Source: Thermoleophilaceae bacterium | GTDB lineage: Bacteria; Actinomycetota; Thermoleophilia; Solirubrobacterales; Thermoleophilaceae | Direction of reading: 5' to 3' | Assembly: GCA_030447905.1 (NCBI GenBank) | Contig: JAUJNZ010000005.1 | Span: 16,780-80,779, forward strand | Length of the DNA: 64,000 nucleotides | Part shown: one piece after another, positions 12,655 to 18,600 of the stretch | Layout: every line of letters begins with the position of its first letter | Position numbering within the stretch: position 1 is the stretch's first letter | Translations under genes and position numbers: made by a program | Notes under the pieces: generated by a model | Told to the model about the DNA's origin: nothing | The model's input: only the letters and a program-made list of their open reading frames with translations | Database searches by the model: none

Positions 12655-13020
12655 GTGAAGCTGCGAGCGCTCAGAGGCGCCATAACCGTCTCCGAGAACG
12701 ACGCCGACGCCATTCTCGACGCGACCGAGGAGCTCGTGCGCGCGGTCATCGAGCGCAACGCCCTGACGCCCGACGACATGGTGAGCTGCATCTTCACCGC
12801 CACCGACGACCTCGACGCCGAGTTTCCCGCGGTCGCCGCTCGCCGCCTGGGACTCGGCTCCGTGCCGCTGCTGTGCGCCCGCGAGATGGCGGTGCCCGGC
12901 TCGATGCCCCGCGTGATCCGGCTCATGCTCCACGCCTACGCGCCCGCCGACGGCCGCCCCGCGCACGTCTACCTCCGCGACGCGATCGCCCTGCGCCGCG
13001 ACCTCGAGGGAGCGCAGTGA
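12655..13020 (+). CDS. aroH: Chorismate mutase, AroH type
   Basis: This enzyme converts chorismate to prephenate, the branch point to phenylalanine and tyrosine. At 121 residues it matches the monofunctional, pseudo-alpha/beta-barrel AroH class known from Bacillus subtilis and Thermus, rather than the all-helical AroQ class. Characteristic elements are RGAITVSEND, DDMVSCIFTATDDLDAEFPA and PLLCAREMAVPGSMPRVIR, which carries active-site Cys/Arg/Glu residues. HVYLRDAIALRRDL closes the protein. The GTG start at 12655 fits the family N-terminus. Its stop overlaps hisC as GTGA. Confidence 0.93.
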   Translation: MKLRALRGAITVSENDADAILDATEELVRAVIERNALTPDDMVSCIFTATDDLDAEFPAVAARRLGLGSVPLLCAREMAVPGSMPRVIRLMLHAYAPADGRPAHVYLRDAIALRRDLEGAQ

Positions 13021-14102
13021 GCATCGAGTTCACCGAGCGCGTCGGGGCCATCCCGGTCTACCCGGCGGCCGAGACCTACGGCTATGAGGGCGAGCTCACG
13101 AAGCTCGCCTCCAACGAGACTCCCTATCCGCCCCACCCCGCCGTGCTCGAGGCGATCCAGGGCTCGCTCGGCTCGCTCAACCGCTACCCCGACCCCACGG
13201 CGGCCGTGTTGCGCCGCCGCCTCGCCGACCGCCATGGCGTGCCCCAGGCCAAGGTCGCCGTCGGCAACGGCTCGTGCGAGATCCTGCTCGCCGCCGCGGA
13301 GGCGATGCTCGAGCCGGGCGCCGAGATCGTCTATGCGTGGCCGTCGTTCTCGATGTACCCCCACCTGGCGGCGATGACCGGCGCGCGCGCGGTGACCGTC
13401 CCGCTCGACGCGGCGGGCGGTCACGACCTCGACGCGCTCGCGCGGGAGGTCACCGTGGCGACGCGGATCGTGCTCGTCTGCAACCCCAACAACCCGAGCG
13501 CCACCGCGCTCCCCGTCGAGGAGATCGACGCCTTCGTCGCCGCCCTGCCGCGTCACGTGCTCGTGGTCCTCGACGAGGCCTACGTCGAGTTCTCGGTCCT
13601 GCAGGACCCCGACGAGTCGCTGCCGCTGCTCGATCGCCACCCCAACGTCGTCCTCCTGCGGACCTTCTCCAAGGTCTACGGGCTATGCGGCCTGCGCGCG
13701 GGCTACGCGCTCGGTCCGGAGTCCTTCCGGCTCGCGGTCGACCGGGTCCGCCAGCCGTTCTCGGTCAACGCGCTGGCCCAGGCGGCGGCAGCCGAGGCCC
13801 TGCGCCACCAGGACGAGGTCGAGCGCCGCGTCGAGCGCACGGTGATCGAGCGCCTGCACGTCCAGGACGGGCTCGCCGACCGAGGACTGGCGGTCAGCGA
13901 CTCGCAGGCGAACTTCTCGTGGGTGGCCCTCGGAGAGGATCGCGACGAGGAGGCGGTCTACGCGGGGCTGGCGCGCTGCGGGGTGATCGTGCGCGGGGGC
14001 GGGGCGCTCGGGGCGCCGGGGCACCTGCGGATCACCTACGGCACGCGGGCCGAGAACGATCGGTTCCTGGCGGCGCTGGACGGAGCGCTCGCCGAGGGGT
14101 GA
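13017..14102 (+). CDS. hisC: Class I/II PLP aminotransferase, histidinol-phosphate/aromatic type
   Basis: This PLP-dependent aminotransferase is 361 residues long. LASNETPYPP at the N-terminus, CNPNNPSAT, VVLDEAYVEF and the Schiff-base Lys (K219 in TFSKVYGLCG) are those of the HisC family. HisC converts imidazole-acetol phosphate and glutamate to histidinol phosphate. Family members in aromatic gene clusters often act on phenylpyruvate or 4-hydroxyphenylpyruvate. Translational coupling to aroH (GTGA overlap) and the nearby tyrA and glutamate synthase genes favour an aromatic aminotransferase role here, but no other his genes are in view to decide it. Confidence 0.88.
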   Translation: MSIEFTERVGAIPVYPAAETYGYEGELTKLASNETPYPPHPAVLEAIQGSLGSLNRYPDPTAAVLRRRLADRHGVPQAKVAVGNGSCEILLAAAEAMLEPGAEIVYAWPSFSMYPHLAAMTGARAVTVPLDAAGGHDLDALAREVTVATRIVLVCNPNNPSATALPVEEIDAFVAALPRHVLVVLDEAYVEFSVLQDPDESLPLLDRHPNVVLLRTFSKVYGLCGLRAGYALGPESFRLAVDRVRQPFSVNALAQAAAAEALRHQDEVERRVERTVIERLHVQDGLADRGLAVSDSQANFSWVALGEDRDEEAVYAGLARCGVIVRGGGALGAPGHLRITYGTRAENDRFLAALDGALAEG

Positions 14103-14241
14103 GCAGGGGCCGCGTCGGAGCCTTTCGCGCTCGTGCGGGCGGGCCCATGGCCGGCGAGAAGCTCTTGCGAGCCACGCGCGCCGGTGCCGGTGTTCCAAGC
14201 TGACCCCCGTCGAGGCCGATACCTGCTACAAAGGTCCCTTC

Positions 14242-14322
14242 ATGCCGCACCTCGTCACGTCAGCCGACCTTATGAGCGCCGCTCCGGGCGTCCGTTGGCG
14301 TGCCTATCCGCGATTTACCTAG
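14242..14322 (+). CDS. Candidate aromatic leader peptide upstream of aroF
   Basis: This is a 26-codon reading frame in the 345-bp aroF leader. It starts at ATG 14242, eight bases after AAAGG; the same AAAGG precedes aroF. Its last residues are VRWRAYPRFT followed by TAG, so Trp19, Tyr22 and Phe25 are evenly spaced just before the stop. The Tyr and Phe codons are TAT and TTT, which are uncommon next to TAC and TTC in the neighbouring genes. The stop codon touches the first arm of a hairpin. This resembles a regulatory leader peptide of a ribosome-mediated attenuator sensing charged aromatic tRNAs. A second in-frame ATG at 14272 would give a 16-residue version. It is not experimentally supported. 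Confidence 0.5.
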   Translation: MPHLVTSADLMSAAPGVRWRAYPRFT

Positions 14323-14399
14323 GCGTCCGGGAGGCGCGGCCAGCGGCCGCAACGACGCTTCCGATGCGCCCGGACGCCCCGCAACCGGCCGACAGGCCG
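14286..14399 (+). promoter_or_regulatory. Candidate attenuator with mutually exclusive hairpins before aroF
   Basis: Three segments matter. S1 (14286-14294, GGGCGTCCG) lies inside the leader frame just before its Trp codon. S2 (14322-14331, GGCGTCCGGG) begins at the leader stop codon. S3 (14369-14379, CCCGGACGCCC) pairs perfectly with S2 over 10 bp or with S1 over 9 bp, but not with both at once. A small GCGGCC-AGC-GGCCGC hairpin (14336-14350) is nested between S2 and S3. A further CGGCC-GACA-GGCCG hairpin (14386-14399) follows. There is no T-tract, so control could be Rho-dependent or translational instead of intrinsic termination. The role is inferred. Confidence 0.45.
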
Positions 14400-14447
14400 T
14401 TCCGTCCCCGCCGATAGGCTGATCGAGGAGTAGAAAGGCATCAAGAG

Positions 14448-15488
14448 ATGATGATCGTGATGAAAGAGGGCGCAAGCCCGGAGCAGATCGACGCGGTGAT
14501 CGACCGCATCGAGTCCGTGGGCGCCAAGGCGCACCCTTCGCGCGGCGAGCTCGTGACGGTGATCGGGGCGATCGGCGACCGCGAGCACGTCGCCAACCTC
14601 GGGCTCGAGGGGGCTGAGGGCGTCGACCACCTCGTCCCCATCCTCAAGCCCTACAAGCTCGCCTCGAGCCAGTTCAAGAAGGGCGAGCGAACCGTTCTCG
14701 ACATCGGCGGGTGCCGGATCGGCGGCCCGCACTTCATGGTGATCGCCGGACCGTGCACGGTCGAGTCGCGCCAGCAGCTCCTCGACACCGCGCACGTGGT
14801 CAACGACGCGGGGGCTCACTGCCTGCGGGGTGGCGCGTACAAGCCGCGGACCTCGCCGTACTCGTTCCAGGGTCTGGCCGAGGCGGGGCTTCGTCTGCTC
14901 GCCGAGGCCAAGGAGGAGACCGGCCTGCCGATCGTGACCGAGGTCATGGACGCCCGCGACCTCGAGGCGGTGCTCGAGGTCGCCGACGTGATCCAGCTCG
15001 GCGCGCGCAACATGCAGAACTACACCCTCCTCACCGAGCTCGGCCGGGCCGGGCGCCCGGTCCTGCTCAAGCGCGGCCTGTCGGCCACGCTCGAGGAGCT
15101 GCTCATGTCCGCGGAGTACATCCTCAAGGAGGGAAACGAGGCGGTGATGCTGTGCGAGCGCGGCATCCGCACGTTCGAGACCGCCTACCGGTTCACGCTC
15201 GACCTGATGGCCGTGCCGGTGCTCAAGGACCTCTCGCACCTCCCCGTCGTCGTCGACCCCAGCCACGCGGCGGGCCGGCGCGACCTGGTCGGCCCACTCT
15301 CGCTCGCCGCGGCTGCGGCGGGAGCCGACGGCATCATCGTCGAGACCCACCCCGACCCCGAGCGGGCGATCTGCGACGGGCCGCAGGCGGTGCGGGCCGA
15401 GGAGTTCGGCGACTATCTGCGTCAGGTGGAGCAGGTGGCGGCCGTGGCGGGCAAGGCGACGGTCGGCACGGCGGAGGCTCAAGTCTAG
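14448..15488 (+). CDS. aroF: 3-deoxy-7-phosphoheptulonate (DAHP) synthase, AroA-beta/AroF type
   Basis: This enzyme condenses phosphoenolpyruvate and erythrose 4-phosphate, the first step of the shikimate pathway. It is 346 residues long. Residues 1-75 form a ferredoxin-like regulatory domain ([20 protein letters not shown]), as in Thermotoga-type enzymes, where it binds Tyr or Phe for feedback inhibition. The KDSA-like barrel follows with [48 protein letters not shown] and [13 protein letters not shown]. The ATG at 14448 follows AAAGG. The long leader with its short aromatic frame suggests control by amino-acid supply in addition to allostery. Confidence 0.96.
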
Positions 15489-15659
15489 GCTCGCCGGGCG
15501 CGCCCACACTCCCTCTGGGCCAAGCCGGCGGTGGAAGGCCTCCCCGCGGCCAACGCTCGGCTGCGCCGCGCGCCCTAAGGTCTTATCTGTGCCGCCGCTT
15601 GTGCACCACCAGCTGAATGAGCTCCGGGACTCCGTCGCCCGGACGGTCCTCGGCTGAGC

Positions 15660-18600
15660 ATGGCGACGACTCCCTCCCGCCACGGCCTCCACGACCCCGC
15701 CCGCGAGCGCGGAGCGTGCGGCGTGGCCTTCGTGGCCAAGCTCGGCGGCGAGCGCTCGCACGAGTGCGTGCGCCGGGCCCTGACCTCGCTCGAGAACATG
15801 GAGCACCGCGGCGCCGAGGGCGCGGACGCCGACACCGGCGACGGCGCCGGAATCCTGCTCCAAATCCCCGACGAGCTGCTTCGCGCGGACATGGGCGGCG
15901 CGCTGCCGGCGCCCGGACGTTACGGGGTCGCGGTCTGCTTCCTGCCCCGCGACGGCGAGCGCCGGGACGCGCTCGAGGGCGCGCTCGAGGACGCGGTGCG
16001 TGCGCAGGGTCAAGGCGTACTCGGCTGGCGCGACGTGCCGGTCGATCCGGCCGAGGTCGGCGAGGTGGCCCGGCGCACGGCTCCGATCATCCGCCAGCTC
16101 GTGGTGCTCGCGTCCGAGGGGATCGACGAGGACGCCTTCGAGCGCTCGCTCTACCTCGCCCGGCGCGCGGCCGAGCGCACGACCGACTTCGAGCTCGTCT
16201 TGCCGAGCTTCTCGGCGCGGACGGTGGTCTACAAGGGCATGCTCTCGGCGCCCCAGCTCGGCCGCTTCTACCGCGACCTCGCCGACGAGCGGCTGCGGAG
16301 CTCGGTCGCGCTTGTGCACTCCCGCTTCTCGACTAACACCTTCCCCAGCTGGGAGCTCGCCCATCCCTACCGGATGATCGCCCACAACGGCGAGGTCAAC
16401 ACGCTGATGGGCAACCGCAACTGGATGCGCGCGCGCGAGTCGCAGCTCGCCTCGGACCTGCTGGGCGAGGGGCTCGGGGAGACGCTGCCGGTGATCGCCC
16501 CGGGCGCCTCGGACTCGAAGGCGATCGACAACGCACTCGAGCTGCTCGTCATGGCCGGGCGGTCGCTCCCGCACGCGGTCAAGATGCTCATCCCCGAGGC
16601 CCACGAGGGCCGCGACGACCTCCCCGAGGGCCTCGCCGACTTCTACGACTACCACTCGTGCCTCACCGAAGCCTGGGACGGGCCGGCGTCGGTGTCGTTC
16701 ACCGACGGCCGCGTGGTCGGGGCGACCCTCGACCGCAACGGCCTGCGCCCCGGCCGCTGGCTCGAGACCCGCGACGGCTGGGTGATCTGCGCCTCGGAGG
16801 CGGGGACGGTCGAGCTCGAGCCCGGCGAGGTCCTGCGTAAGGGGCGGCTCAAGCCCGGCGCCCTGCTGCTCGTCGACGTCGAGGCCGGGCGGGTGCTCGC
16901 CGATCGGGAGGTCGAGCGCGAGCTCGCGGCGCGGCGGCCCTACGGTCGCTGGTACCGCGAGCGGACCGTCCGCCTCGACGAGCTGCCCGAGCCGGAGGCC
17001 GGGCGCGCGTCGTCCGACCGTTCGCCTTCCCCGCCCGCCGAGTCGCTGCGCCGCCGCCAGCTCGCGTTCGGCTGGACGCAGGAGGATCTCCGCGTCCTAC
17101 TCGCGCCGATGGCCGGGGACGGCAAGGAGCCCAACGGCTCGATGGGCTCGGATGTGCCGCTCGCGGTCCTCTCGGACCGCCAGCCCCCGCTGTTTGCCTA
17201 CTTCAAGCAGCTCTTCGCCCAGGTCACGAACCCGGCCATCGATCCGGTACGCGAGGAGGCGGTCATGAGCCTGCGCACCGCCCTCGGCCCGACCGGCAAC
17301 ATCCTCTCGGAGGAGCCCGGCCACGCCCACCAGCTCGTCATGGACACGCCGATCCTCCGCGATCCCGAGCTCGAGCGGCTGCGGGCGGTCCGCCACGAGG
17401 TGCTCGCGGCGCGGACCCTCGACGCCACCTGGCCGCGGGCCGACGGCGCCGCCGGGCTCGAGCGGGCGCTCGAGCGGCTCTCCGGGGAGGCAAGCACGGC
17501 GGGCGCCGAGGGCGTCAACGTGCTCGTGCTGTCAGACCGGACGGTCGGTCCCGAGCGCGTACCCGTCCCGTCCCTGCTCGCCGTCTCGTCGGTTCACCAC
17601 CACCTCGTCCGAGAGGGGACGCGCCTGCGCGCCGGGCTGGTCGTCGAGTCGGGAGAGCCGCGCGAAGTCCACCACGTCGCCTGCCTGATCGGTTACGGCG
17701 CGAGCGCCGTCAACCCGTACCTGATGCTCGAGTCGCTCGGCGAGCTGGCCGCCTTCGACGAGACCGAGAGGGAACCGCCCGCGGGCCGGCTGCTCGACGA
17801 CCCGCTCGACGTCGACGACCGCGCCGGGGCGGAAGCACGGCTCGTCCGGGCGCTGAACAAGGGGCTGCTCAAGATCCTCTCGAAGATGGGGATCTCCACG
17901 ATCCAGTCCTACTGCGGGGCGCAGATCTTCGAGGCCGTCGGGCTCGACGCCGACCTCGTCGAGCGCCACTTCACGGGCACCGCCTCGCGGATCGGCGGGG
18001 TCGGCCTCGAGGTGCTGGCGGACGAGACGATCGCCCGCCACGCGCGCGCCTGGCCTGAGCCCGACGAAGAGCTGCTCCCGGTGGGCGGCCTCTACGCTTG
18101 GCGGCGCGACGGCGAGTTCCACATGTGGAACCCCCAGACGGTCACGGCGCTCCAGCGCGCGGTCGGCCTGCCCCCCGTCCTCCCGAGCGCCGGCCGCGAC
18201 GGCGCCGGCGGCGAGCCCGATCCAAGCACCTACGAGGAGTTCGCGCGGCACGCCAACGAGGATGCGGTTCGCCGGGCGGCGCTGCGCGGACTCCTCCGGC
18301 TGAGGCCGGAGGGCGAGGGCGTGGCGCTCGAGGAGGTCGAGTCGGTCGCGGAGATCACCAAGCGCTTCTCGACCGGCGCGATGAGCCTCGGCTCGATCTC
18401 GCCCGAGGCCCACGAGACGCTCGCCGTGGCCATGAACCGGATGTCGGGGCGCTCGAACACCGGCGAGGGCGGGGAGGACCCGCGCCGATATCAGCCCGAT
18501 CCCAACGGCGACGCCCGCCGCTCGGCCATCAAGCAGGTCGCCTCGGCGCGCTTCGGGGTCACGATCGGCTACCTCGCCGACGCCGACCAGCTCCAGATCA

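Follow-up and report, generated by a model that had tools for sequence, protein, structure and literature searches.

Attenuation by leader peptides is an established kind of control, and the element described here, which lies before the DAHP synthase gene of a Thermoleophilaceae bacterium, is presented as a new variant of that kind. The window is the whole stretch of 64,000 nucleotides that was analysed (assembly GCA_030447905.1, contig JAUJNZ010000005.1, positions 16,780 to 80,779). In Corynebacterium glutamicum, the aroR leader before aroF was described with Phe-Tyr-Phe codons; according to the passages on aroR, limitation of phenylalanine leads to ribosome stalling and increased expression (PMC4046766; PMC11802643, citing Neshat et al. 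2014). An aroF leader in Corynebacterium had also been named in the first-pass annotation of the window. Both leaders are actinobacterial leader peptides with aromatic codons before a DAHP synthase gene; whereas the present one has Trp, Tyr and Phe codons together, a probably leaderless start, and no terminator was seen.

Other described systems share single properties with this locus. In attenuators of the trp/his type, such as ilvB1 of Mycobacterium tuberculosis (PMC13236596), the regulatory codons also lie near the end of the leader open reading frame (ORF), and the ribosome at the stop masks the arm that a stalled ribosome leaves free; however, neither a U-tract terminator nor a second competing hairpin was found in the present leaders. 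The polycysteine ORFs of mycobacteria (Canestrari et al. 2020), which are called translation attenuation in a passage of PMC13236596, are likewise leaderless short ORFs with a run of sensor codons before actinobacterial biosynthetic genes. As far as that passage describes them, they differ in the amino acid and the gene, and the masking of a Shine-Dalgarno site is unsupported in the present leader. The LEU element of actinobacterial leuA is also a conserved RNA that overlaps a leader ORF; it precedes the gene for a first pathway enzyme and has no classical terminator. It is a pseudoknot with a base stem that pairs the sensor codons and the Shine-Dalgarno box (PMC1262725). In the same survey of Actinobacteria, operons for phenylalanine or tyrosine were not seen to have conserved structures upstream (PMC1262725). 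A literature search joining leader peptides with the order by name found no described leader regulation. No match above the gathering score was obtained with Rfam 15 in positions 13000-16500, and the element would be an order-wide RNA missing from that database.

The leader and its gene are composed of the following features.

14224-14232, + strand: P1, extended -10 promoter element TGCTACAAA, assigned from the conservation of TGNTACAA and the start-codon spacing
14242-14322, + strand: leader ORF with the product MPHLVTSADLMSAAPGVRWRAYPRFT-stop, 26 codons from ATG at 14242 to TAG at 14320-14322, probably leaderless, with a C-terminal aromatic cluster conserved over 85 leaders
14296-14298, + strand: Trp sensor codon TGG, read from the sequence
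14305-14307, + strand: Tyr sensor codon TAT, read from the sequence, with TAT enriched across the 85 leaders
14314-14316, + strand: Phe sensor codon TTT, read from the sequence, with TTT in 26/26 leaders found by a peptide-only criterion
14310-14324, + strand: core GCGATTTACCTAGGC, nearly invariant and mostly unpaired by leader comparison and folding, spanning the last codons and the stop
14322-14331, + strand: arm S2 GGCGTCCGGG, pairs with S3 (covariation)
14336-14350, + strand: inner hairpin between S2 and S3, predicted fold, with a mean z of -1.34 for the inner segment (82 leaders) and +0.4 in the window
14369-14378, + strand: arm S3 CCCGGACGCC, pairs with S2 (covariation)
14448-15488, + strand: DAHP synthase, type I-beta (NF006421, 477 bits; TIGR01361, 379.5 bits; Pfam DAHP_synth_1 and DAHP_snth_FXD)

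The leader is real, and its most likely role is to make the ribosome a sensor for a lack of Trp, Tyr and Phe together. We give a probability of roughly 0.78 to the reading that a ribosome-gated leader controls the DAHP synthase gene, in which S2 would be covered by a ribosome at the stop and S2:S3 would be free to form under a stall. The first-pass annotation had proposed an attenuator-like leader that senses the three aromatic amino acids by its translation, and the comparison of 85 leaders argues for this proposal. Three observations support it: the Trp/Tyr/Phe cluster in the last nine codons, the ORF directly behind an extended -10 element, and the covarying stem S2:S3.

When 84,980 species were scanned for GCGATTTANCTAGGCGTYC, 60 stretches were obtained; they all come from Thermoleophilia/Solirubrobacterales where the record names a group below the phylum or the class Actinobacteria. 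These stretches and the loci found through the synthase protein make up the 85 distinct leaders, which are essentially all within one order (Solirubrobacterales-type genomes). The bases of GCGATTTANCTAGGCGTYC are fixed by construction in the 60 public loci, and any claim of invariance rests on the synthase-found loci. In a motif-free check, loci were fetched by the synthase protein and searched for aromatic-rich frames; a leader turned up in 26 of the roughly 41 loci that could be read within the order and in 0/17 outside it. A covariance model (R1) of the element gave about one match per genome. Its confident matches were confined to the order among 397 genomes from the phylum, of which C. 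glutamicum is perhaps not one. A pattern search with 3 mismatches was rejected as too loose, for its reversed control also gave about one match per genome.

The 26-codon frame exists as first annotated, with TGG, TAT and TTT spaced three codons apart, and it is conserved in relatives. Phe, Trp and Tyr are all present within the last 15 codons of 84/85 leaders, and this placing of end-product codons near the end of the putative leader ORF is that of the trp/his type. At codons -4 to -9 the aromatic fraction is 0.33-0.93; farther upstream it does not exceed 0.11. The same-family leaders, read directly from the synthase gene, end with an aromatic cluster followed by R-F-S/T-stop (for example, ...YWRF(S/T)-stop). 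The Tyr and Phe codons had been called uncommon, which is borne out by the DAHP synthase genes of these loci, where TAT makes up 3.5% of the Tyr codons and TTT 2.5% of the Phe codons. In the last 12 codons of the leaders there are 80 TAT vs 59 TAC. Because TAT thus accounts for 80/139 Tyr codons near the leader end and for 3.5% in the synthase genes, the use of rare TAT and TTT codons is a general feature of the predicted leaders; such codons may increase the ribosome's sensitivity to uncharged tRNA. A stop-codon readthrough or frameshift product of the leader was also considered, and no frame was consistently open.

The heptamer TGNTACAA within P1 is exact in 54/85 leaders, compared with 0.2 expected, and it is preceded, about 18 bases upstream, by a TTG-like box. 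The start codon follows 7-15 nt past its last A, mostly 8-11, at all 67/67 sites with at least 6 of 7 matches. A Shine-Dalgarno-like site was present in 1/67 of these leaders. The AAAGG before the frame had been annotated as a ribosome site; this sequence is present, but it is the end of the promoter element, and its GG is often absent in other leaders that keep TGNTACAA. Since AAAGG is the tail of TGCTACAAA, with the start 7-15 bases behind it and a Shine-Dalgarno-like site in only 1/67 leaders, the message of the leader ORF is probably leaderless, as predicted from the promoter. The first-pass annotation had named a transcription start downstream of 14322 as evidence against its proposal; the conserved promoter, which sits upstream of the ORF, does not speak against it.

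The first base of S2 is the last base of the leader stop codon, and S3 starts 32-77 bases behind the stop across the leaders. The perfect pairing of the two arms, and the contact of S2 with the stop, had been noted from the window and were confirmed. The pairing was also found to be conserved and to covary, so neither frame nor stem is peculiar to the window, which the first-pass annotation had set as a test. Of its coordinates for S3 (14369-14379), the start is right and the end is 14378. In an alignment made without structure, 93.3% of the S2:S3 cells are paired, and this falls to 27.8-42.9% when the partner is slid by 1-3 columns. There are 14 double-change cells vs 3.7 in shuffles, with four pairs changed on both sides. 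Examples of compensating pairs are GGCGTCC with GGACGCC, GGCGCTC with GAGCGCC, and GGCACTC with GGGTGCC (one G-U). Similarly, S2 varies in the loci found via the synthase (GGCGCTC, GGCACTC, GGCATCC), and S3 follows. The S3 positions were set by complementarity in some steps, whereas the covariation count used the structure-free alignment; the RNA folding covers nested structures. The fold of the whole S2-S3 segment has a z of -3.9 in the window and a mean of -2.94 over the leaders. A conserved stem whose first arm begins at the stop is expected of an attenuator, with the ribosome footprint inferred.

From the general knowledge of footprint sizes, a ribosome with the stop codon in its A site covers about 12 bases past the first stop base. 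A ribosome waiting at the stop would then cover the whole S2 (roughly positions +2 to +12, counted from the stop's T), and S2:S3 would be blocked during transcription. With Trp at codon -4 or an earlier aromatic codon in the A site, the ribosome would end near the stop and leave S2 free. This part of the scheme, with S2:S3 free under a stall and S2 covered at the stop, had been put forward in the first-pass annotation and is well in line with the comparison. A stall at an uncharged Trp, Tyr or farther upstream aromatic codon would allow S2:S3 to form and the synthase to be expressed. S2:S3 is most likely the ON form, because a biosynthetic gene should be on in shortage. The step under its control may be one of transcription (a pause of RNA polymerase, or termination that needs no T-tract), the decay of the message, or translation.

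The sensing half of this reading is well supported, and the output half is less settled. Several observations weigh against it. No T-tract was found behind S3 in the aligned leaders, as had been noted for the window, and no terminator-like site was found in the leader. The segment behind S3 is weakly structured (z -0.29), and pairing of S3 with downstream sequence is slightly weaker than in shuffles (85 leaders; mean z +0.36). Comparison of S1:S2, S1:S3 and S3:downstream pairings with shuffles, where S1 is a further arm of the first-pass annotation, revealed no mutually exclusive second structure. Some members of the order have the synthase gene but no such leader. In addition, a candidate second promoter would allow part of the expression to bypass the leader. 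The features behind S3 are as follows.

14415-14420, + strand: TAGGCT, candidate -10 of a second promoter P2, between S3 and the synthase gene, with no clear -35 in the window
14431-14438, + strand: Shine-Dalgarno site TAGAAAGG of the synthase gene, read from the sequence

The pattern TANNNT occurs 12-33 nt before the start in 31/56 type I-beta genes, compared with 6.9 expected. Terminator-like sites with a hairpin and a T-tract are also rarer than in shuffles in positions 1-40000 of the window (1 vs 4.2, 1 vs 3.0).

Rho or translational control had been suggested as the output. None of the 101 genomes of the order reached the Rho family cut-off; whereas 32/120 genomes drawn from the class passed it, all from other families, some of which have a normal Rho and some none seen. 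The best match in the window's genome scored 151 bits vs a cut-off of 509, and its ATP-binding loop is unrecognisable.

L181 1288-2457, - strand: Rho homologue in the window's genome, keeps Rho_N and the RNA-binding domain

In the Rho homologues of relatives (L183-L194) this loop reads SGRT (Lys to Arg). The order seems to be without an intact Rho, and Rho control of the leader is unlikely because 0/101 genomes reach the cut-off. Translational control by hiding of the Shine-Dalgarno site is not supported by the folding either; the synthase site is equally open with S2 free (0.51 unpaired) and with S2 covered (0.50). This raises the question of how attenuation acts where neither intact Rho nor T-tract terminators are seen. 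A tentative answer, which we consider rather doubtful, is an attenuator without Rho, T-tract terminator or second competing hairpin, in which the fixed GCGAUUUANCUAGGC and the post-stop stem are read by something new. RNA polymerase, the terminating ribosome or the RNA-binding remnant of Rho might be such a reader.

The stretch GCGATTTANCTAGGC (14310-14324) is almost fixed, synonymous sites included, and is mostly unpaired. The codons CGA TTT and the stop TAG are present in 26/26 leaders from the search without a nucleotide motif; therefore the fixed core does not stem from the motif used in the scan. Leaders of the window's genus and of a few others have Pro, Leu or Arg in place of Trp but keep the G before CGA. 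Because this G stays where Trp is replaced, the constraint on the core is placed at the nucleotide level by the comparison. A pairing partner for the core was also sought; the core is mostly unpaired and forms a weak self-hairpin alone.

The core bears on two other explanations. In E. coli tnaC, the conserved codons reach the stop, the ribosome at the stop decides, and tna needs Rho. By analogy, a nascent W-R-F-x peptide at the UAG could sense free aromatic amino acids, and the held ribosome would cover S2 and turn the gene off. The fixed CGA TTT and the stop TAG immediately before S2 are consistent with such an arrest, as is the length of S2, which is about what a ribosome at the stop would cover. 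However, the residue beside the stop can be S, T, I or R, some leaders have another residue in place of Trp, and the make-up of the cluster shifts between species, a pattern that fits codons better than a single peptide surface. An arrest of this kind is therefore unlikely. As a described system, tnaC also differs in its need of Rho, which is not intact in the present order, and in its opposite metabolic direction. Even less probable than the arrest is that GCGAUUUANCUAGGC beside S2:S3 is a protein-binding site or a DNA/RNA-polymerase pause element, with translation of the peptide secondary. Synonymous positions are fixed there (the synthase genes use CGA for about 6% of Arg and TTT for about 2.5% of Phe), most of the stretch is unpaired, and conservation extends past S2:S3, all of which would suit such a site; but the aromatic cluster and the rare TAT are conserved as coding features without nucleotide conservation, and the exact motif was found solely before DAHP synthase genes, about one per genome, unlike the site of a general regulator.

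The first-pass annotation had further proposed that, after finished translation, S1:S3 replaces S2:S3, with Rho or translational output.

14286-14294, + strand: S1 of the first-pass annotation, GGGCGTCCG; in the sequence, not a conserved part

S1:S3 is a perfect pairing of 9 bp in the window, with a z of -1.9 there and of -2.4 and -1.6 in the two nearest relatives; S1:S2 has a z of -1.4 in the window alone. However, over the 85 leaders neither S1:S3 nor S1:S2 pairing exceeds dinucleotide shuffles (mean z -0.13 and +0.09), and neither an intact Rho in the order nor a Shine-Dalgarno switch was found. The S1:S3 alternative is not conserved and is at most a local feature of the window's genus, and the scheme built on it is very improbable. 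Chance is practically untenable as an explanation. It would take a small ORF that happens to hold some aromatic codons, next to a GC-rich hairpin of the sort that is common in a genome of high GC content, and the S1 and S3:downstream pairings are indeed such cases. The frame, the aromatic cluster and S2:S3, however, exceed chance, which is refuted by the conservation of frame, cluster, promoter and covarying stem across 85 leaders and both synthase types.

Wherever the downstream gene is readable, it is a DAHP synthase. The type I-beta class follows 57 leaders and the type I-alpha class (TIGR00034) follows 23; in many loci the type I-alpha gene is followed by a prephenate dehydrogenase-like gene (named from sequence). 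The leader would thus join the sensing of Trp, Tyr and Phe at the pathway entry, and it is retained when the enzyme type changes. For the two type I classes of DAHP synthase, only this type I-beta gene was found in the window's genome; a search there for a type I-alpha synthase with a leader copy found no type I-alpha gene. In the same genome trpE lies close behind another coding region, and the search for a Trp-rich leader ORF before it found none. The upstream neighbours of the synthase gene in the window are a histidinol-phosphate-type aminotransferase and the chorismate mutase AroH, and glutamate synthase lies downstream. At one locus (L213, 1631-3063), a single leader precedes a shortened type I-beta DAHP synthase and, directly behind it, a type I-alpha gene, an arrangement that possibly represents a stage of enzyme replacement under constant control.
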